From a virus, in the IMG/VR virus record IMGVR_UViG_3300046660_000777, positions 1-22,793 of that record: a stretch of 22,793 bases of DNA; one strand, given 5' to 3'. Each line of letters starts with the position of its first letter. Position 1 is the first letter of the stretch. The notes under the pieces are model-generated. The model was not told the DNA's origin. It saw only the letters and a list, made by a program, of their open reading frames with translations, and searched no databases. This document shows positions 8,326 to 22,425 of this stretch, one piece after another. The position numbers were made by a program, and so were the translations under genes.

Positions 8326-8423
8326 ATTTCGTCCATGAGAAGCTTGAGAGCAGGGTAAGGAATCGCTGCAACGTCGCTTGGTTGCCTATTTCGTAGGGTG
8401 CGGTAAGGTCGTAGCCGCTTCAT
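8322..8423 (-). CDS. Short coupled ORF between DUF4145 and membrane genes
   Basis: 33 residues from ATG 8423 (38 from ATG 8438), starting MKRLRPYRTLRNRQPSDVAA. It overlaps the 3' end of the DUF4145 gene and its TGA overlaps the GTG of the next gene, so it could carry ribosomes between the two. GGGA lies about 5 nt upstream of the 8423 ATG. Composition is basic and plausible but the frame is short. It may only be a coupling ORF. Confidence 0.4.
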   Translation of the reverse strand: MKRLRPYRTLRNRQPSDVAAIPYPALKLLMDEM

Positions 8424-9075
8424 CTTTTCCCTTTCCATCTCGTTCCTTAATCCAGCCTCTGTTCTTTGCCGGGATCTCGCCATAGAGACGGGCGATAGTC
8501 CTTGGTCGCTCAATCCGGTCTTCGACGACGAAGTTGAGCATGCCGAATAGGGCATGAGCTAGTTCGGGCGTGTCGTTGAGGTCAAGCTCACCAGGGTGCA
8601 CTGATTCATTGCCGATCACGCGGAGGTAGTCCAGAGCCTGTTGAACCTCTTCCGGCAATCCGCCGGCCACAAGGGTGGCGATATCCGCATCAATCTTCTT
8701 GCCAGGAAGGCTCAGCGCGACCATGAGCTTTTGCAGTGCAAGACGTAAGAGCGCCGCAGTCGCACGCGGAGAGCGTCCAAATACGGACGCAGCCTCGAGG
8801 TAGTCGGCTCGAACATCGTCAGGCATCAGAGGATGGGGCGGCGGCGCCGCAGAATGGTCAGGGTGAACCATGCGCGCGGGACCACCGCCAACCTCGATCC
8901 AGTACTGGTGTTGTCCGCAATGGCCGCAATAGACAGCGTGCACGGGGGTTGCTGTGAGGCCGTTTCGCGCACTTCCGGCTTGCAGATTGGTCCAGTGCTG
9001 GGCCGTGTAGACCTGGCACAGCGGGCAGTGATATGACCTAGCTTGGAATGACGGTGCGACGTGCTTGTCCTGCAT
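8386..9075 (-). CDS. DUF4145-domain protein with N-terminal zinc ribbon
   Basis: 229 residues. AGGAGG lies 7 nt before ATG 9075. Cys17, Cys20, Cys50 and Cys53 (YHCPLC...VYCGHCG) form a probable zinc ribbon. The C-terminal helical domain (about 85-185) has RSPRATAALLRLALQKLM and YLRVIGNESVHPG, characteristic of DUF4145, a HEPN-like all-alpha domain found in solitary form and attached to restriction and other defence proteins. The Arg152...His160 spacing (seven residues between) is not the canonical Rx4-6H of HEPN ribonucleases, so catalysis is doubtful. First gene of a minus-strand cassette carried antisense to the late region. Confidence 0.75.
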   Translation of the reverse strand: MQDKHVAPSFQARSYHCPLCQVYTAQHWTNLQAGSARNGLTATPVHAVYCGHCGQHQYWIEVGGGPARMVHPDHSAAPPPHPLMPDDVRADYLEAASVFGRSPRATAALLRLALQKLMVALSLPGKKIDADIATLVAGGLPEEVQQALDYLRVIGNESVHPGELDLNDTPELAHALFGMLNFVVEDRIERPRTIARLYGEIPAKNRGWIKERDGKGKDEAATTLPHPTK

Positions 9076-10994: not shown

Positions 10995-11194
10995 CCTGCT
11001 CGGAACGTCTGCTGGCCGCCATTGAGGCGCAGCAGGTCACTATCGCTGAGCAAGGTCGGCACCTCGCTCAACAGGCTGAGCAGATCGGTCTGCTTGTTCA
11101 GTCGGTAGCGCTCCTGCTTGGGGAAGAACTTGGCAACCCCGACGCGGATGGAGAAGAACCGCAGCGCTTGGACCTGGACGGAAAGCCATACTGA
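10991..11194 (+). CDS. Small coiled-coil protein, 67 aa
   Basis: The ATG overlaps the Rz stop and its TGA overlaps the HNH start. It is almost all helix (AIEAQQVTIAEQGRHLAQQ...) with heptad-like hydrophobics and an acidic C-terminal end. No membrane segment is visible. Position puts it between lysis and packaging genes. Function unknown. Confidence 0.65.
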   Translation: MTCSERLLAAIEAQQVTIAEQGRHLAQQAEQIGLLVQSVALLLGEELGNPDADGEEPQRLDLDGKPY

Positions 11195-11568
11195 TGCCGG
11201 CGCGGGCGCCCAAGCACCGGCCTCATGCAAGGCCGGTTAAGCAACATGCGCCCCCGGCGAGAGACCGCCAGGCCGAGCGGGCCTTGGCAACAAATTCTAC
11301 GTACTGGCTAAGGCTGCGCGCCTTGGTGCTCGCCCAGTCACCGCTCTGTGTTGTTTGCTTGGCTGAGGGCAGGACGCGGGCAGCAAGCCATGTCGATCAC
11401 ATCGACGCAGATACCAGCAACAACGACCTCACCAACCTGCAGGGCCTATGCCGACCTTGCCACAGCGCGAAGACCGCGCGCGAGGACGGCGGGTTCGGGA
11501 ACCGGCGCGCGCGTGCGCGAGATTGGACCGTCGGCGGGACGACCGGGGAGGGGCGGGTCAAAAGTTGA
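11194..11568 (+). CDS. HNH endonuclease, packaging-associated
   Basis: 124 residues. A basic N-terminus precedes the HNH core: Cys52 and Cys55 (LCVVC), His66 and His69 (SHVDHID), Asn81 (LTNLQG), Cys86, Cys89 and His90 (LCRPCH). The two CxxC pairs bind structural zinc and the His/Asn residues hold the catalytic metal. HNH proteins next to terminase genes are required, together with terminase, for specific DNA cleavage in several cos-type and HK97-like phages (HK97 gp74). The gene lies just before the small terminase, consistent with that role. Confidence 0.88.
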   Translation: MPARAPKHRPHARPVKQHAPPARDRQAERALATNSTYWLRLRALVLAQSPLCVVCLAEGRTRAASHVDHIDADTSNNDLTNLQGLCRPCHSAKTAREDGGFGNRRARARDWTVGGTTGEGRVKS

Positions 11569-11668: not shown

Positions 11669-12097
11669 ATGGCAAATCCCCGCAAACCCACATCGCTGAA
11701 GGTGGTTGCCGGGACGGATCGCCCCGACCGGGACGCGCCAGCGGAGGTCGCCGATCTCCCGTTGGTATCAGAGGTTCCGCCCGCTCCGGATTGGTTGCCC
11801 AATGCGCACGCCATCAAGGAATGGGACCGCCTGGCGCCGATTCTTCACGCAAACAAGCTCCTGACCGAGGCCGGCCTGTCGGCCCTCGGCCAGCTGTGCG
11901 CCCTGCACGGGAAGACGGTCCAGCTCTACGCTGCCGGGGAGACGCCCGTTGCTTCGATGGTGGCCCAGGTACGCGGCCTGATGAACGACTTCGGCCTGAC
12001 CCCGGTAGCCCAAGGCAAGGTGAGGCCTGCCGGCGACACCGAAAGGGCCGGCAACGCCTTCGCCAACAACGGGGCGAAGCGGAAGACCCGTGCGTGA
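11669..12097 (+). CDS. terS: Small terminase subunit, P27 family
   Basis: 142 residues. PRKPTSLKVVAGTDRPDRDAP at the N-terminus, DWLPNAHAIKEWDRLAPIL in the middle and GLMNDFGLTPVAQGKV near the end are the family pattern of P27-type small terminases (Terminase_4). It recognises the packaging start and delivers DNA to the large subunit. ATG 11669 is preceded by GGAA. The gene begins after a 100-bp non-coding gap and its stop lies inside the first codons of the large subunit. Confidence 0.87.
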   Translation: MANPRKPTSLKVVAGTDRPDRDAPAEVADLPLVSEVPPAPDWLPNAHAIKEWDRLAPILHANKLLTEAGLSALGQLCALHGKTVQLYAAGETPVASMVAQVRGLMNDFGLTPVAQGKVRPAGDTERAGNAFANNGAKRKTRA

Positions 12098-13289
12098 TTA
12101 CGTCGGGATCGCCACGGCGTATGCCCAGGAGGCGGTAGCCGACAAGAAGGGGAAAAAGTTTGGGAAGTGGATACGGCTCGCGGGCAAGCGGTTCTTGGCC
12201 GACCTCAAACGCGCGAGCCGAAAGCGGCCGCCGTTCCTGTTCGACGAGTGGCATGCCTGCGATCCCTGCGACTTCATCGAGAAGCTGCCGCATGTGGAAG
12301 GAAAGTGGGCTCGGCCGGAGATTGAGCTGCACCGCTCGCACGTGTTTTTCGTGGTGCAGCTGTTCGGGTTCCGAAACCTGGACGGAAGCCGCAGGTTCAC
12401 ATCGGCGCTGTTCGCGGTGGCGCGAAAGAACGCCAAGTCCACATTGGCCGCGGCGATCCTGCTGTACTGCCAGTGTTGCGAAGAGGAAGAGGGCGCCCAG
12501 ATCATCTCGGCCGCCACCACCGGCAGCCAAGCGCGAATCATCTTCAACGTCGCCAAGCGGATGACGGAGAAAACGCCGGACCTGCAGGAGGCCTTCGGGC
12601 TGGCCTGCTGGGCCAATGCCATCAGCCGTGTGGAGACTGGGGCGAGCTTCAAGCCCATCAATGCGAAGGCGAGCACGCAGGATGGCCTGAACCCGTCCCA
12701 CGTGGGCTTGGATGAGATCCACGCGCACAAGTCAGCCGATCTGCTCAACGTGCTTACCTCGGCTGCGGGCGCGCGGAGCAACCCGTTGTGGCTTTACACC
12801 ACAACGGAGGGCTATACGAATCCGGGACCGTGGGGGGAAATCCGACAGTTCGCCAAGCAGGTGCTTCAGGGCATCTTGGGCGAGTCGGCTGACCACTTCC
12901 TGGTGGTGTTCTTTGCGGTGGACGACGAGGACGACGAGTTCGACGAATCGGCTTGGCCCAAGGCCAATCCGTTGATGGACGCCAAGGCGGCACAAAGCGC
13001 AGCATGCAGCACTTCCTCGATTCCCTGTTGCCCCGGTCCGACGAGGACGAGGCCCAGGACTGGTTCGATTCTCTGTGAGGCCTCATGGCTGATACCTTCG
13101 GTCGCTTCGCCGCGGCGCCGATTGGCCCACTGCTGGCTGCCCGCGACGGTGGCCTCACCTTGGCCACGACAGCGGCCGCCGACCTCAACCGTATGGCCCG
13201 CTCGGACATCTCCCAGACCGAGGGCACGGTCGGAGTTGAGTTCGCCGTGTGGGGCGATGACGAGATGGCTGCCGTCGTCGGCATCGTGA
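12090..13289 (+). pseudogene. terL: Large terminase, truncated at a deletion junction
   Basis: Starts with GTG 12090 (GGAAG upstream), overlapping the terS stop. About 298 residues look like a real large terminase. A Walker A-type motif is ARKNAKST (111-118), a Walker B is HVGLDEIH (204-211) and SFKPINAKASTQDGLNPS fits the family. The last recognisable stretch is SAWPKANPLMD (ending near 12983). After it the frame continues for about 100 codons that read as Ser/Pro/Arg noise and overlap the next gene. The C-terminal nuclease domain and normal family length (about 550 residues) are absent. The ATPase core is kept but packaging cleavage should be lost. Confidence 0.85.
12983..13078 (+). pseudogene. 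3' remnant of a tail gene fused to terL
   Basis: In another frame to terL, codons after about 12983 read QGGTKRSMQHFLDSLLPR, then acidic/Trp residues, ending SL and TGA at 13076-13078, 6 bp before the next ATG. This reads like the true end of a phage structural gene, perhaps a tail assembly chaperone. Only the last ~31 codons are left, and the only ATG in it (13004) lacks a good ribosome-binding site. It is the right-hand side of the deletion junction. Confidence 0.6.
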
Positions 13290-15052
13290 CCGGCTCGGCG
13301 CCGCTGGACGCCTATCCCGGCGCCACAGCCGGCGGTCTGGGCTGGAACCTTGCCGCCGGTCGCCTGGTGATTAACGGCAGCGCCGCAGCCGTTGGTCTCC
13401 CGTTCGTGGGCCGAGGCGACACCGCCGGGCTGCTGGTGGAGATCGGCAGCCCGAACCGACTCACGCTGTATCGCAACGGGGACCTGGTCCACCAGCGCGA
13501 CTTCGTCATGGCCGGGCCGCTGTTCTTTGCCGCTGCACTCGCAGCGACTGAGGCCGGCGGCCTGAATATGGCCGTGAATGCTGGCCAGTGGGGCGCCCGC
13601 AGCCCGGCCGCTGCGGCAGGCTGGGGCTTGGCGGAGCCGGCGGCAGAGGTCGTCCGGCTTTCCGACGTAGACTGGCTGACCGCGCCCGGCGACACCCCCA
13701 GCAATGCCCGCTTCGAAGGCGTGCTGGCCGAGGGCATCAACCTGGTCAGCGAGATCAATTTCTGGCCGTGGGGCGGGGAACCGGTGAGTCAGACCAGCGC
13801 CGCCGAGTGCATGGTGTTGGATGCCGAGGGCCGGCTGGACGAGCTGGCGCAGCGCGGCCTGTCAGGCCTGCCCGTGCAGATCCGCATGGGGTCCGAGGCC
13901 GGCATGCTCAACGACACAGTGCCGGTCTTCCGCTTCTCCGTGGACCGCATCGAGATCAACGACGACGGCAGCAAGACCCTGCACTTCAAGGATGCCCACG
14001 ACGACCTCGACGGCACGATCAACCGCGGGGTGTTCCTGCCCAACATCACCGGCCTGGCATGGAAGCCGCAGCCGGTCGTGATCGGCGCGGTGGCCAGCGT
14101 ACCGGCGATGGGCGCCAATTCCGACGCCACGGCCATGTTCGTGGCTGACGGCCCAGTTTTCGCCGACCTGGTCATGGATCGCGGCGACACGATGGAGCCG
14201 GGCACCTACAGCGTGTCGCCCGACGGCCAGCAGCTCATCATGAAGTCGCCGCCGGTGACGCCGGTGGTGGCAGACCTGTCGAGCGTGGGGCCCGGGCAGC
14301 AGCCGGCGACCCTGCAGCAGGCGATGGCCGACATCATGGGCCGGCTCGGCAAGTCGGCATGGGTGGCCACGGACTGCGCAGCGATCGACGCCGCCACCGG
14401 GTACGCGGGCATCGGGTACTACGCTGGCAACGCCATTACCGGCCGGGACGCGATGAACGCGATCCTGCCCAGCTACAGCGCCGCGTGCTACCAGGATCCG
14501 AATGGGGCCCTGCGGTTTACCCGGGTGGTCGCGCCGGAGAGTCACGCCCGCGCGTCGGCCTTCGACTTGGTGGAAGACGACCTGGCCGAGGATCTGCTGT
14601 GCGTACCGGATGATGCGCCGAATCTGACCCGCCGTATGGCCTACCGTCCGAACGCGCAGGCGCTGGCCGCGTCCGACCTGGTCACCGACGTGGTGGACGT
14701 GCCCCAGTGGCGTCGCGACGAGCTGGCGGGACTGTTCCGGGCCCAGGTGTACGGTGCCGGGGCGCTGCACCCGCACTATCGCCGCGCGGATGCGGCGGAT
14801 CCGGTCATCGCCCTGTTCTGGCGCGCAGCGGATGCCCAGGCCGAGATCAACCGGGTGGTGGCCATCTACCGCGAGCAGCGGTTCTTCTACCGGGTCAGCG
14901 TGCGCGGTGACCAGGAGCTGGCGCCGCGGCCAGGGCAGATCGGTCGGATCACCTACAGCCGGTACGGCCTTGCCGCTGGGAAGCTGGTGCTGGTCCGGCG
15001 CGTAGAGCGCAACCCTGCCACGGGGGACGTGGTGCTGACGGTGTGGGGGTGA
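13085..15052 (+). CDS. Tail protein with SPRY/lectin-like domain, 655 aa
   Basis: GAGG lies about 5 nt before ATG 13085. Residues about 45-165 (EGTVGVEFAVWGDDEMAAVV...GLGWNLAAGRLVING...TLYRNGDLVHQRD) read as a SPRY/concanavalin-like beta sandwich. The remaining ~480 residues (FPVQ-like core with VFRFSVDRIEINDDGS, GRDAMNAILPSYSAACYQD, VAIYREQRFFYRVSV) resemble a phage baseplate or tail-tip structural protein, with a hub-like middle. Exact family is not recognised. It is read as the first intact gene to the right of the terminase junction, in an intact tail operon. Confidence 0.65.
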   Translation: MADTFGRFAAAPIGPLLAARDGGLTLATTAAADLNRMARSDISQTEGTVGVEFAVWGDDEMAAVVGIVTGSAPLDAYPGATAGGLGWNLAAGRLVINGSAAAVGLPFVGRGDTAGLLVEIGSPNRLTLYRNGDLVHQRDFVMAGPLFFAAALAATEAGGLNMAVNAGQWGARSPAAAAGWGLAEPAAEVVRLSDVDWLTAPGDTPSNARFEGVLAEGINLVSEINFWPWGGEPVSQTSAAECMVLDAEGRLDELAQRGLSGLPVQIRMGSEAGMLNDTVPVFRFSVDRIEINDDGSKTLHFKDAHDDLDGTINRGVFLPNITGLAWKPQPVVIGAVASVPAMGANSDATAMFVADGPVFADLVMDRGDTMEPGTYSVSPDGQQLIMKSPPVTPVVADLSSVGPGQQPATLQQAMADIMGRLGKSAWVATDCAAIDAATGYAGIGYYAGNAITGRDAMNAILPSYSAACYQDPNGALRFTRVVAPESHARASAFDLVEDDLAEDLLCVPDDAPNLTRRMAYRPNAQALAASDLVTDVVDVPQWRRDELAGLFRAQVYGAGALHPHYRRADAADPVIALFWRAADAQAEINRVVAIYREQRFFYRVSVRGDQELAPRPGQIGRITYSRYGLAAGKLVLVRRVERNPATGDVVLTVWG

Positions 15053-15056
15053 TCCG

Positions 15057-15818
15057 GTGTTGATCGGATATGGAATGCCAGCGGTTCAGTCGGTTTCGTT
15101 GGTGGGCGGCACTTGGCTGACGGCCGACGCCGGTGCCGCCTTGTTCGATGGCAAGCCGGGTCGCCGCAGCCGCATCAGCCGCACCGGTGCGCTGGCTATT
15201 AACATCGTTCTAGCCGAGGCCATCGTGCCGGGCATCGTGGCCGTGCTGGGGCTCAACGTTCCGCCCGGGGTTCAGGTAAGCGCCGGCGGCGCGACCGCGA
15301 AGACCGTGCGGATGCCCGATGGCAGCGTCTGTGCCTGGCTGTTCCCGACCGCTGGCGGCCCGGTGTCAAGCCTTGCGGTACAGATCGACACGGTGGTCGC
15401 GAACGTGGAGGTGGGGGAGGTGTCTATCTTCCGCGTCGTGGAGGTGGGAATCACCGATGGCTGGGCGGTGGCCACAATCGACACCAGCATGCACACCCGC
15501 ACGAAGGGTGGCCAAGTCAACACGGTGCCTGGCGCCACTTATCGCCGCCTGACTGCTACGTTGAGTGCCAGGGCCACGGAGGTGGTGAGAAAGGGCGCGC
15601 TGGCCGGCACGGACTGGGAGACGGTCGCCCTGGCCATGACAGGCCGGCGGCGGGCCTGCGTCGTGCCACAGTACCGCGACATGCTCACCAAGGTGTTCGA
15701 CCCGGTGCTGGCGGCGCGCGCAGCGCTGTATGGCTACGCCACCCAGTTGCCCAGCGCCGAGAATGTGAGCCGGCAGTACTTCACGGGCTACCTCGAATTC
15801 GAAGAAATCCCGGCCTGA
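15057..15818 (+). CDS. Hypothetical phage structural protein, 253 aa
   Basis: Starts with GTG 15057 (GGGG upstream), 4 bp after the previous stop; a TTG follows directly. The product begins VLIGYGMPAVQSVSLVGGTW and is rich in beta strands (ALAINIVLAEAIVPGIVAVLGLNV, SSLAVQIDTVVANVEVG). The C-terminal half carries RKGALAGTDWETVALAMTGRRRACVVPQYRD and ends in an acidic LEFEEIPA. It looks like a tail or tail-fibre accessory protein; no named family is recognised. Confidence 0.65.
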   Translation: MLIGYGMPAVQSVSLVGGTWLTADAGAALFDGKPGRRSRISRTGALAINIVLAEAIVPGIVAVLGLNVPPGVQVSAGGATAKTVRMPDGSVCAWLFPTAGGPVSSLAVQIDTVVANVEVGEVSIFRVVEVGITDGWAVATIDTSMHTRTKGGQVNTVPGATYRRLTATLSARATEVVRKGALAGTDWETVALAMTGRRRACVVPQYRDMLTKVFDPVLAARAALYGYATQLPSAENVSRQYFTGYLEFEEIPA

Positions 15819-16099: not shown

Positions 16100-19000
16100 A
16101 TGTCCCTCTACACGCTCACTGTCGATCTGCTCATGAAGACGGGCTCCTTCGTCAAGGATGCCGGTAAGTCTGCGCGCCAGTTTGAACAGAGCATGCTGGG
16201 CATGCAGGCGACCGCAAAGAAGGCCGGAACCGCGATTGGCGTGGCGATCTCAGCGGGCTTGGCGGCCGGCAGCACGGCGGTGGTTCAGTGGACCCGCCAA
16301 GTAGCAGCACTGAGCGTCGAGTACGACCGCATGTCGGCTCTTTCGGGGACCACGTCTCAGATGTTCCAGCGGTGGGCAGCAGGCGCCCAAGTGGTCGGCG
16401 TTTCCCACGAAAAATTGGCTGACATCTTCAAGGACGTGCAGGACAAGATCGGCGACTATATTCAGACCGGCGGCGGCGCCATGGCTGACTTCTTCGAGAA
16501 CATTGCGAAGAGGACAGGGGTTACCGCCGAGCAGATGCGAAAGCTCTCCGGCCCGGACGCGCTCGGTCTCTACTTCAAGAGCTTGGAGCGAGCGAACCTG
16601 TCGCAGACAGAAATGACCTTCTATATGGAGGCCATTGCGAGTGATGCATCGGCATTGATTCCGCTGCTACGCAACAATAGCGCCGGGTTGAAGCAGTGGG
16701 GCGACGCGGCCGAGTCCGTTGGCGCGATTATTGACGGCAAGACCACTAAGGCCACGCAGCGGCTTCGGGAAATGTCCGTGCAGGCCGACCTGGCGATGCA
16801 GGGCCTCAAGAACAGTGTTGCCGAGGAGCTGTTGCCCGAACTACAGAGCCTGACGGAGGTCATGGGCTCCGAGCAAACGCGCAACGCCTTCGCAAGTGTC
16901 ACGCGCTGGACCGCCCAGCTGACGGGCGAGATGGCGAACGGCGCTGTCCAGATTGTGAACCTCATCGACCGGTTCGCTGAGCTGCAGCGACTTGAGGGTG
17001 CAACGCCCAGTGCCCTTGGGGCTGCGTCGGAAGACGCCCTCAACGAGCAATTGGGCTCGCTCAACGCTCGGCGCAAATTGCTGCTCGCCGTCGAAAGTCC
17101 GTCGGAGAAACGAGATGCAGAAGCAAAGCGGCTCGAGGACGAACGCCTCCGCATCCAACGTGAGCTGACAAGGCGGTACAAGCCCCAGGCAGTCCTGATT
17201 GACGCCGGCCAGAATTTGCCGGAGGAAGCCCTTAAGTCAAACACCGTGCCCTACCGGCCTACTGGGAACATTGGCAAGGCGGAGCGCGACAAGGCGACAG
17301 GTGAAGCGAAGCAAGCGGCCGATGCGCTCAAGCGGCAACGTGAATCCATCGACCGCTTTCATCAGCAGGCGGAGGAGGCCGCCGGCGCAATGAGCGGCCC
17401 TCTGGCAGCTGCCATGGCGAAGCACCTGGGCAACATGTCCGAGTACAACGGCCTGCTGGGGGAAGGGAACATTGCCCAGGCTGACGCGAACGTATTGATG
17501 GCACAGAGCGCTGCTGAATACGCCAAGGTGGCGGCTGAGGTTGACGCCGCCATGGCCGGCCCGGAAGCGCTGATCGCCACTATGGATGGCGAGTTGGCCA
17601 TGCTGGGCAAGATCGGCCGCGCTCGCGAGCTCTACCGGCGTCAGCTGATGAATGAGCGGGACATGCGCCAAGAACTGCAGAAGGCGGTGGAGGGAGCCGG
17701 CAGCAAGGAGGCGCTCGCATTGGCCAAGGGCGCGGCGAGCTATGAGGAGTACGAGCGATCAATGCTCGCTGCTGCCGACGCCGCTGCAGCGATGTCCATC
17801 CAGGTGGAGGAGGCAGCGGCCAACATGGAGGCGTGGGTCGACGTCGTGATGCATGGCGTCGAAGGGGCTGCTGATGCCCTCGCTGACTTCGCGGCAAGCG
17901 GGTTGCGCGACTTCGACAACCTCTGGGACGACATGAAGGACGTGGCCAAGCAGGGCCTGCGCGACATCGCCCGAGAGCTGCTGCAGCAAAAGCTGGTCAT
18001 CCCGATCCAAGCGAGGATCACCGACGCAGTGAACGGCTGGGGTAGTCAAGGCGGCGGGCTGAGCTGGGATAGCGTCCAGGGCCTCTTCGCGGGCAACGGC
18101 AGCGCCGCCGGCGGGCAGAATGTCAGCAACGTGGCCGGAATCCTTTCCAAGGGTCAAGGCATGTTCGGCTTCGGCTCGGGGGCTTCCTCGGGGGCCGGCT
18201 CCCTCACAGGCTTCGGTGACGTAACCAGCTTCGCCGGCATGACTGGATCGAACTTCACCGGCTTGGTGGGCGGTGGCGGCGCAAGTGCGGGTGCCGGCGC
18301 GGCTGGCTCATCGATGGCCGCGGCGGTGCCGGTCATCGGCTGGATCGTGGCCGGCATGATGAAGAACGCCGAACTGTTCGATCAGGGCTGGAACATCGCC
18401 AATGGCGAGAGCTGGGCTGGAAAGATCGCAACCGCCGGCGCGGTTGGCCTCGCGGACAAGAGCTTCCGTGGGCTGGGGTTCAACGACAAGACTGCCTCGA
18501 TCCTGTCCGGCTCAAGCATCCACGCCAAGCTGTTCGGCCGCAGCGCTCCCAAGATCACGGGGCAGGGCCTGACCGGCAGCTACGGCTTTGGTGGCTTCGA
18601 CGGCCAGAGCTACGCGGACATCAAGGCCAAGGGAGGCCTGTTCCGCAGCGACAAGAAGTGGACCCAGTACACCGGGCTGGACCCGAACATCGACCGCACC
18701 TTCGACATGGCCGCGCGCCAGGTACGCGGCGCCAGCACCGACTTGGCCAAGCAACTGGGCGTTGACCTGTCCAAGCAGCTGGCCGGGGTGAAGGTCACCC
18801 TGGGCAAGCTCACCCTGTCGGCCGACTCGGCCGAGGCCAAGGAGCAGCTGGCGGCCTACTTGGGTGACATGACCGACCGCCTGTTCACGGAGGCGGTGAA
18901 GGCGGCTGGGTTCGGCGGCCAGCTTGATGGCTACTTCGAGGCTGCAGACGTCTTCAGCGCGGTGAGCGCATCGATCGCGCTGGCAGTGGGTAACGCCGAC

Positions 19001-19858
19001 GAGCTCGGGCGCGCGCTGAACGGCCTGGAGATCGACAAGGTCAACAAGGCCGTGGACTACTTCCAGGACTTGGCCAGCGTCGCCGGCACGGATCTGGCCA
19101 CGCAGATCGAGAAGGTGACCGGGCTGCTGGGCAACTACGCCACGCTGATGGCCGACGTGTCCACGCAGCTGCTCACTGGGAACCTGACCGGCTATCAGTC
19201 CCAGGCACTGACCGTTGAACGAACGTACCGCCAGCAGGTGAAGGCGGCCAACGATTACGCGAAGGCGCTGGGCCTGTCCGGTGCTCGTGCGGAGGATCTG
19301 GCCAAGATCGAAGCGCTGCGGGCCACCAACATGGGCAAGCTGCAGGCACAGATCGACGCCGACAAGAAGGCTATGACCTATGGCTTGTCGGTGAGCGACC
19401 TGTCGCTGCTGACCGATCAGGAGAAGCTGCAGACGACGATGCGCGAGCTGGAGCGCGCAGTGTCCGGGGGAGACTCCAGCGCGGCGCAGGCGGCCGCCCA
19501 AGCGGCTCTGGGCTTTGGTCGGAACCTCTACGCCAGTGGGAAGGACTACAACGCCCTGTACGGCCAGGTCACGGGCCTCATCGACAGCATGAAGGTGGGC
19601 AACCTGGACCTCGAGGATGGCACCAGCATGGGGCAGCTGGCCGACGCGATCGAGGCGCTGCCGGACAACTTCAGCCGGGCGGTGTTTGACTTGGTGGTGG
19701 ACAACAAGGCGCAGGCCGCGACCACGACCGCCGTGCAGCAAAGCAATGCTCTGCTGGCCGAGCAGAACCAGGTGCTTCGTAGCCTGCTGCAGGTCACCAC
19801 GCAGGGCGTCCGCACCAGCTCCAGCACTGCGATGCGCGCAGCGCTCAACGAAAGGTAA
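16100..19858 (+). CDS. Tail tape measure protein
   Basis: 1252 residues. GGAG lies about 6 nt before ATG 16100. The long helical, Ala/Gln/Lys-rich chain has an N-terminal DLLMKTGSFVKDAGKSARQFEQSM, typical of siphophage tape measures, and a hydrophobic segment at about 40-62. Gly/Ala/Ser-rich patches lie in the middle (about 640-750), with a second hydrophobic segment (VPVIGWIVAGMM). The C-terminal ~300 residues are helical, with repeated AQAAAQAALGFGRN-like stretches. Tape measures set tail length and enter the host during injection; length in nm is roughly 0.15 per residue, suggesting a tail near 190 nm. The gene is intact even though head genes are missing. Confidence 0.93.
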   Translation: MSLYTLTVDLLMKTGSFVKDAGKSARQFEQSMLGMQATAKKAGTAIGVAISAGLAAGSTAVVQWTRQVAALSVEYDRMSALSGTTSQMFQRWAAGAQVVGVSHEKLADIFKDVQDKIGDYIQTGGGAMADFFENIAKRTGVTAEQMRKLSGPDALGLYFKSLERANLSQTEMTFYMEAIASDASALIPLLRNNSAGLKQWGDAAESVGAIIDGKTTKATQRLREMSVQADLAMQGLKNSVAEELLPELQSLTEVMGSEQTRNAFASVTRWTAQLTGEMANGAVQIVNLIDRFAELQRLEGATPSALGAASEDALNEQLGSLNARRKLLLAVESPSEKRDAEAKRLEDERLRIQRELTRRYKPQAVLIDAGQNLPEEALKSNTVPYRPTGNIGKAERDKATGEAKQAADALKRQRESIDRFHQQAEEAAGAMSGPLAAAMAKHLGNMSEYNGLLGEGNIAQADANVLMAQSAAEYAKVAAEVDAAMAGPEALIATMDGELAMLGKIGRARELYRRQLMNERDMRQELQKAVEGAGSKEALALAKGAASYEEYERSMLAAADAAAAMSIQVEEAAANMEAWVDVVMHGVEGAADALADFAASGLRDFDNLWDDMKDVAKQGLRDIARELLQQKLVIPIQARITDAVNGWGSQGGGLSWDSVQGLFAGNGSAAGGQNVSNVAGILSKGQGMFGFGSGASSGAGSLTGFGDVTSFAGMTGSNFTGLVGGGGASAGAGAAGSSMAAAVPVIGWIVAGMMKNAELFDQGWNIANGESWAGKIATAGAVGLADKSFRGLGFNDKTASILSGSSIHAKLFGRSAPKITGQGLTGSYGFGGFDGQSYADIKAKGGLFRSDKKWTQYTGLDPNIDRTFDMAARQVRGASTDLAKQLGVDLSKQLAGVKVTLGKLTLSADSAEAKEQLAAYLGDMTDRLFTEAVKAAGFGGQLDGYFEAADVFSAVSASIALAVGNADELGRALNGLEIDKVNKAVDYFQDLASVAGTDLATQIEKVTGLLGNYATLMADVSTQLLTGNLTGYQSQALTVERTYRQQVKAANDYAKALGLSGARAEDLAKIEALRATNMGKLQAQIDADKKAMTYGLSVSDLSLLTDQEKLQTTMRELERAVSGGDSSAAQAAAQAALGFGRNLYASGKDYNALYGQVTGLIDSMKVGNLDLEDGTSMGQLADAIEALPDNFSRAVFDLVVDNKAQAATTTAVQQSNALLAEQNQVLRSLLQVTTQGVRTSSSTAMRAALNER

Positions 19859-19863
19859 GACCA

Positions 19864-22425
19864 ATGCAGGCAAGGAAAATCACCCTGATTGAGATCGGGG
19901 CAGGCGCGCTGCCGGTGGTTACGCGGGTGCCGCTGGTGCAATCGTCGTGGTTCCCGGTGATCTACACCCCGCCCGGAACACCGCCCGTGGAGGGCGTCGT
20001 CCCCAGTCCGGTGGCTGACGGGATCCTCATCGAGTGGTCCGCCGTCGATCAGGAAGGCGTTATCTACATCATCGAGCGCGGCCCGACGCAGGACGGGCCG
20101 TGGGAGGAGATCCACCGGACCACCGAGACGCGCTACCTCTACAGCGACGGCAGCGGGCAGCAGTGGTGGTTCAAGATCACCGCGAGCGTACGGGGCAAGC
20201 CGGGCGAGGGCAGCATCGTAGGTGCGCGCCCGGGGCAGGTGCCCAGCTACGAGGAAATGGAGGAACTGAATCAGGCCATCGGTCAGGAGATCCTGGACCG
20301 GCTGGCAGGCGACCTGAAGGCGACGAACGATGCGATCGCGTCCGCCCGCACCTACACCAACGAGCAGGTGGCGGCGCTCAACGGTATCCTCCAGGACATC
20401 ACAGGGGCGGATGAGTGGGCCGCCGGCAAGACGTACCCCGTAGGCGACTTCGTGCGCCGGTCTGGCACGCTGTACCGCGCCCTGCGGCAGAGCACCGGCG
20501 TGGTGCCAGGAACAGATCCGGCGACCTGGCAGGCAATTGGCAACTACACGTCGGTTGGCGACGCTCTCGCCGCGTCGATCAGCATGGCGACGCAGAACGC
20601 CAGCGATATCCGTGCCGAAGCCACCCGGACCGACGCCGTCGTGGCGAGAATGCCGACGGGCACGGGCGGGCTGGCTACAGCGGCCAGCGTATCGAGCCTG
20701 TCGCAGTCCACGGCGGACAACCTCTCGTCCATCGGCCAACGCGTCAACTCGGTGGAGGCCAAGGTGCCCGCAGACGGTGTCCGTGCGGCTAGTACGGCGC
20801 AGGTCAACAGCGTCGATCAGGCCCGCTCGAGCGGCGACGTGGCACTCGGGCAGCGGATCGACACCACCAACGCTGCGCTGGCGGGAAAGGCCAGCGCTGA
20901 GGCCCTGGGCTTGCTGCAGGCGCACGTCCAGGAGACGGACGGCAGAGTGGACGCCAATGCGTCGGCCATAAACGGGGTGCGTTCCGAGCTGGGTGGAGGT
21001 AGCAACCTCGTGCCTAACTCAGCGTATGAGGTGTCTATCGCTGGTTGGGTGCTGGCCGCGAATCAATGGGGCGCCGGTGCGTCGGTGACTCGCAACCTCG
21101 CCGGAGACTCGTGGCGGCCGCCGGGACTCAACAGCTTGGGCATCACCATTGCCACCGTAACTCCCAGTGGCTCATGCGTGGTGCAGTCACCTGCGTTTCC
21201 TGTGACCGAGGGCGTGCTCTACCTTCCGTCCGTGTACACCGCGGCACACCGCTGCACAGCTTTCGGCCGAATCGTGTTCACCGACGCGAACTCCGCCGAA
21301 ATTGGCAACGGCGGTGAGCTGTCGCGGAATGTCGCGCAGTTCGCTGGTGGCCAGAATTTGAACGCCTGGCACCGGGGCACGCGTGCTCCTATTGCTGCGC
21401 CGGCGGGTGCTAGGTTTGCGCGCTTCCAATTCTGGGCAAGGGACGCGACAGCAGCGGCGCCGTACGCGTGGTTTATGCGGCCCATGCTCGAGGAAGCGCG
21501 ATCCGGCCAGACGGTGCCGTCGCCCTGGGTGGACTCCCCGGCGGGCTTGGATGCGAAGTACGCGGCGGTCACCCAGTCCATGGAGACCCGGGCGACCCAG
21601 CTGGAGAATGGGCAGACCCAGCTGATGGCGCAGTACGCGTTCGCCCTGGACGTGAATGGCCGCGCCATCGGCATGAAAGCCCTCAACAACGGGACGGTCG
21701 GCCGCATCGACTTCGTGGCCGACGCGCTGAGCATCGTTGACCCGGGCAACACCGGCAGCACCACGTTTGAGGGAGGGCGATGGATCACCCGCTCTGGCGG
21801 TTACATGATGGTGCACGGCAAGCCATTCGGGACCTCTGCCGATCTGATGATGTGGTTCGGCATCGGCTCCGCAGTGAACAACGCCAGCAAAGCCAACGGC
21901 TTGTTCTGGATCGACAACAAGGGCAACGCGTACTTCGGCGGCAGCTTGTCGGCGGGCATCCTGCGCAACGCAGTGCAGACCGGTACAACTCAAACAACGG
22001 GCACGGAGTTGGTGAACGGACCTTTCCGAACGAATGGTGGCAACCGCTCGGTAGCGGTCAGCTTCAGCCGAACGGTCGTGCGCACGAAGAGTGCGCTGGG
22101 TACGACTGGGTTTGTTGCTGGTGCTGGTTCCAACACGGCTACCGTCCAGGTTTATCGGCGTATCGGCACGGCCGCCGAGACTCTCTGGCAAACGCTCAAC
22201 GTGACCGGCTCGGTGAACATCAGCAACGAGCCGGATGCACCGGATCGTGCCGAATCGCAATGGAGCGGTGCGGTCACTGTCAACGATAGCAGCAGCTCGA
22301 CGCAGGACGTCACCTATCGGGCGGTCATTACCGCTTACAGCGAGCAGACCGTTACCCACACCTCGGGCACGTTCGATGGACAGACCATCACCCAGAACCT
22401 TTCGATCATTTCCGTGGAGGGATGA
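19864..22425 (+). CDS. Central tail / receptor-binding protein, gpJ-like C-terminus
   Basis: 853 residues. AAGG upstream of ATG 19864; 5 bp gap after the tape measure. Residues about 48-118 look like a fibronectin-III domain (ILIEWSAVDQEGVIYIIERG). Residues 184-227 (EWAAGKTYPVGDFVRRSGTL...PATWQAIG) resemble a CBM5/12 chitin/carbohydrate-binding module. A helical stalk (about 230-370) follows, then a jelly-roll-like region (380-560; NLVPNSAYEVSIAGW...). A segment like the C-terminal DUF1983 of lambda gpJ is next (FALDVNGRAIGMKALNNG...IDFVADALSIVDP). The end is beta-rich. It most likely recognises the host surface at the tail tip. Confidence 0.82.
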   Translation: MQARKITLIEIGAGALPVVTRVPLVQSSWFPVIYTPPGTPPVEGVVPSPVADGILIEWSAVDQEGVIYIIERGPTQDGPWEEIHRTTETRYLYSDGSGQQWWFKITASVRGKPGEGSIVGARPGQVPSYEEMEELNQAIGQEILDRLAGDLKATNDAIASARTYTNEQVAALNGILQDITGADEWAAGKTYPVGDFVRRSGTLYRALRQSTGVVPGTDPATWQAIGNYTSVGDALAASISMATQNASDIRAEATRTDAVVARMPTGTGGLATAASVSSLSQSTADNLSSIGQRVNSVEAKVPADGVRAASTAQVNSVDQARSSGDVALGQRIDTTNAALAGKASAEALGLLQAHVQETDGRVDANASAINGVRSELGGGSNLVPNSAYEVSIAGWVLAANQWGAGASVTRNLAGDSWRPPGLNSLGITIATVTPSGSCVVQSPAFPVTEGVLYLPSVYTAAHRCTAFGRIVFTDANSAEIGNGGELSRNVAQFAGGQNLNAWHRGTRAPIAAPAGARFARFQFWARDATAAAPYAWFMRPMLEEARSGQTVPSPWVDSPAGLDAKYAAVTQSMETRATQLENGQTQLMAQYAFALDVNGRAIGMKALNNGTVGRIDFVADALSIVDPGNTGSTTFEGGRWITRSGGYMMVHGKPFGTSADLMMWFGIGSAVNNASKANGLFWIDNKGNAYFGGSLSAGILRNAVQTGTTQTTGTELVNGPFRTNGGNRSVAVSFSRTVVRTKSALGTTGFVAGAGSNTATVQVYRRIGTAAETLWQTLNVTGSVNISNEPDAPDRAESQWSGAVTVNDSSSSTQDVTYRAVITAYSEQTVTHTSGTFDGQTITQNLSIISVEG

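Follow-up and report, generated by a model that had tools for sequence, protein, structure and literature searches.

The viral record IMGVR_UViG_3300046660_000777 (22,793 bases, analysed whole and called the window; both ends are open, making it a fragment) joins the first part of the large terminase gene (terL) to the last codons of a small gene on the tail side, orf71. The interval between these two points in close relatives is missing from the window, and the genes flanking the junction are intact. The window probably derives from an HK97-type, lambda-like temperate Stenotrophomonas phage through a recent microhomology-mediated deletion, which would leave it without the means to make heads or tubes by itself. 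One recent deletion event explains these observations most simply.

Gene order and lineage of the window

The gene order of the window is lambda-like. It starts with a CI-type repressor on the minus strand, a CII-like activator, O/P-type replication genes, a RusA resolvase and an endolysin, and continues with an Rz-like gene, an HNH endonuclease, the small terminase gene (terS), a shortened terL, a 655-aa gene, a 253-aa gene, the tape measure gene and a gene for an 853-aa probable tip protein (Table 1). The terS/terL, tape measure and CI/CII/O/P-type genes stand in the order of the HK97-type lambda-like siphophage lineage. The HK97-fold capsid, portal and Clp-type protease that come after terL in direct relatives are absent from the window. 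Assignment to the lineage is based on the flanks, and the absence of head genes is therefore read as a loss in a member; the window alone is not classed as an intact member of the lineage.

The same gene order is found in Stenotrophomonas (pro)phages in IMG/VR, in Stenotrophomonas sp. VV52 (L133) and in S. nematodicola CPCC 101271 (L135). Next to the junction, these (pro)phages share 81-97% (terL side) and 72-93% (tail side) nucleotide identity with the window, but unlike the window they keep a terL-to-orf71 module of 7.2-8.0 kb. The Pseudomonas phages TC7 and phi2 both have the HNH-terS-terL block, with ~69% nucleotide identity across part of terS/terL, and TC7 also has the 8-bp terS/terL overlap of the window; in contrast to the window, both carry a full terL, portal, protease and capsid, and their tail genes are different.

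Two further proteins of the window are of note. The 853-aa probable tip protein has at most 63% identity to its relatives versus ~93% for its neighbours, which is a usual sign of host-range module exchange. A 229-aa DUF4145 protein, encoded on the minus strand at 8386-9075 in the stretch separating the replication genes from the lysis genes, has a match to the anti-phage defence model PD-T7-4 (E=1e-78). Its closest relatives among the fetched loci are only ~60% identical, which marks it as a variable cargo gene, and this PD-T7-4-like gene is a possible reason for the host to keep the element.

Table 1. Features surrounding the junction, with window coordinates.
Feature	Coordinates	Strand	Basis
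HNH endonuclease	11194..11568	+	Pfam HNH E=5e-8; 5' of terS as in related phages; position as in Pseudomonas phage TC7
terS, terminase small subunit, intact	11669..12097	+	Terminase_4 E=3e-9, phrog_83; 100% aa identity to L060
terL 5' part	12090..12986	+	~298 of ~566 residues; PF03354 ATPase kept at residues 84-256; nuclease domain lost
Deletion junction, 5-bp microhomology GCCAA	12981..12985	.	BLASTN matches of the two flanks share exactly these bases in many relatives; alignment
orf71 remnant, last 31 residues and stop	12983..13078	+	Adjoins tail chaperone in relatives; 97% identity to L058 orf71 residues 41-71 (12983-13075)
Out-of-frame continuation of terL reading frame, ~100 codons	12987..13289	+	No homology; ORF 12090-13289; frame differs from orf71 remnant
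655-aa gene, intact	13085..15052	+	phrog_8917 (function unknown); precedes tape measure gene; 96% aa identity over 1-655
253-aa gene, intact	15057..15818	+	No family match
Tail tape measure protein, 1252 aa, intact	16100..19858	+	phrog_2854 E=2e-76; 93% aa identity full length
Probable tail tip/host-interaction protein, 853 aa, intact	19864..22425	+	Position; weak CBM_5_12; 63% aa identity full length

Relatives break at a 5-bp overlap

BLASTN was used to compare positions 12501-13600 with 134 related loci. The matches split at one place: relatives holding terL end at 12985 and relatives holding the tail gene begin at 12981. The break is present in every relative examined, with each flank of the window matching one side. 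A sequence-only reading had placed the loss of TerL family character at about 12983, an estimate that falls inside the overlap; TerL homology stops after 12985. The terL side of the junction in the closest relatives reads GATGGACGCCAA, followed by CCC or TCC, the tail side is mostly CACAGCCA[A/G]GG, and the window has GATGGACGCCAAGGCGGC. On the tail side, the base corresponding to 12985 is mostly G, with A in some relatives; the microhomology may therefore span 4 bp. When these two regions of a relative are joined at random, at least 5 bp are shared in 0.8% of cases and at least 4 bp in 2.3%. The 5-bp overlap is above chance expectation and fits microhomology-mediated recombination, short of proof.

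The same reading had described a fusion of terL to a tail gene. The junction exists at the DNA level, but an in-frame fusion does not, because the terL frame runs on out of frame after the break, into the 655-aa gene. A second frame had been described as looking real from the break on and as ending 6 bp before the 655-residue gene, and this frame is the C-terminal end of orf71. The 655-aa protein occurs widely in Stenotrophomonas prophages and viral contigs; tblastn returned no match to it in 50,697 phage records, and no isolated phage record encodes it.

In the TerL of an intact relative, the nuclease domain (PF20441) occupies residues 286-560 of 585. The C-terminal half is present in 111 terL loci, which are all the comparable ones fetched. 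Loci that seem to lack it are distant terLs whose long ORFs are intact (L022, L024, L045, L047 and L050), contig edges (L115 and L132) and the window itself (L001). A short terL as a conserved natural form was rejected, since the C-terminal half is found in every comparable relative.

The missing interval encodes the head and tail tube

The distance between the two flanks is 7,222-7,968 bp in the 13 distinct related contigs or genomes that hold both, in agreement with the several-kilobase internal deletion that had been proposed. The relatives with a full terL and the missing genes that this proposal called for were found by BLASTN across the junction region. In locus L058, the interval contains the TerL nuclease half (PF20441), portal (PF04860), Clp-type protease (PF00574), HK97-type capsid (PF05065), a 129-aa ORF, an Ad1-type head-tail adaptor, head closure, a gp10-like neck protein, tail terminator, major tail protein and tail assembly chaperone. 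It ends in a 71-aa ORF (orf71), whose first 40 residues are lost in the window. The portal, protease, capsid, connector, tail terminator and major tail genes had been reported missing with no copy in the window, and tblastn with the head-module proteins bears this out, giving chance-level matches only elsewhere in the window. A head module rearranged to another part of the window was rejected on the same result.

The deletion would have removed this interval as one continuous stretch of ~7.2-8.0 kb by illegitimate recombination, probably at the GCCAA common to terL and orf71. Genes for the repressor, replication, lysis, the small terminase, the tape measure protein and the tail tip remain in the window. 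The nuclease part of TerL is gone, as are all head, neck and tail-tube genes; thus packaging and particle building would be impossible unless a helper phage supplies these functions. The known roles of the lost gene families suggest that the element is defective alone.

The flanks are intact and come from one lineage

None of the 17 other window genes tested shows an internal stop when aligned to relatives, and several reach 93-100% aa identity, consistent with the earlier view that the downstream genes are intact. No flanking gene has decayed, which suggests that the deletion is recent or the variant rare. Three relative contigs (3300011774_000008, 3300017792_000025 and 3300025304_000133) each match both the left and the right flank. 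The first of these has 100% identity to the window in terS, 97% in the O-type protein and 96% in the 655-aa protein. Matching of both flanks by the same contigs indicates one phage lineage; two unrelated phages are thus unlikely to have been joined. None of the relatives is close enough in sequence to have been the direct parent.

Support for the join comes from one assembled contig, and no second copy was found. Exact and degenerate patterns, in a search that possibly left out the window's own record, located the junction in no other IMG/VR contig searched. None of 91 Stenotrophomonas genomes spans the join; all strong matches in them are interrupted at the two breakpoints described above. 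A relative joining the same short terL to this tail gene would have spoken against a deletion; such relatives were sought in IMG/VR and in these 91 genomes and were not found. No plasmid matched the region, and a literature search on cryptic prophages with microhomology and terminase gave no match.

The restriction of the junction to one contig is also what an assembly or library chimera would give, in which the natural genome has the full head-tail module and the GCCAA join was made during amplification or assembly; the sequence-only reading had likewise allowed for an assembly artefact. Flanking genes free of decay agree with such an origin, as does the overlap itself, since amplification chimeras typically show short microhomology. 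However, gene order and strand are preserved across the join and its two sides match the same relatives, features that a random chimera would not have to show. An overlap of 5 bp is far too short for an assembler to act on, and the join must therefore be present in some reads at least. A chimera is judged rather unlikely, though it retains some weight.

Status of the element

The retained genes bear on a third origin, a helper-dependent element, either a defective interfering phage or a satellite, which would retain the packaging site, replication and lysis and spread within its community in the heads and tails of intact sister phages. The window has kept genes for replication and lysis as well as HNH and terS, and the loss of ~7.5 kb from roughly 40 kb (the relatives' contigs reach 37-43 kb) would leave a genome that is often still within the packaging range of cos phages. 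Against this, there is no second instance, the short form is not conserved and a satellite-specific gene was not found; moreover, the tape measure and tail tip, which are dispensable with a helper, are retained without any shortening. Such an element is very improbable. The window likewise does not correspond to a phage satellite in the sense of a recurrent, conserved short element with helper-hijacking genes, the junction being in no other contig searched. A tailocin was rejected because the genes for the major tail protein and the tail terminator are among those lost.

Like a defective cryptic prophage, the window has lost essential particle genes relative to close intact relatives. The CI/CII genes suggest a prophage or lysogenic state; no integrase, tRNA or host flank was seen within the 22.8-kb fragment. 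Preferential loss of packaging genes is a known pattern in incomplete prophages (PMC7744054), which like the window have lost packaging and particle genes and retained others. The window differs from these prophages in having a single clean deletion without other decay, and in being known as a viral fragment whose integration is presumed.

The deletion, or possibly assembly error, is an ordinary kind of event and not a new system, and it opens no new question. The gene content and completeness scores of the contig should not be read as those of a natural short phage. The window is instead a clear textbook-type example of a particle-building module lost in a single step, with the breakpoint resolved to 5 bp.
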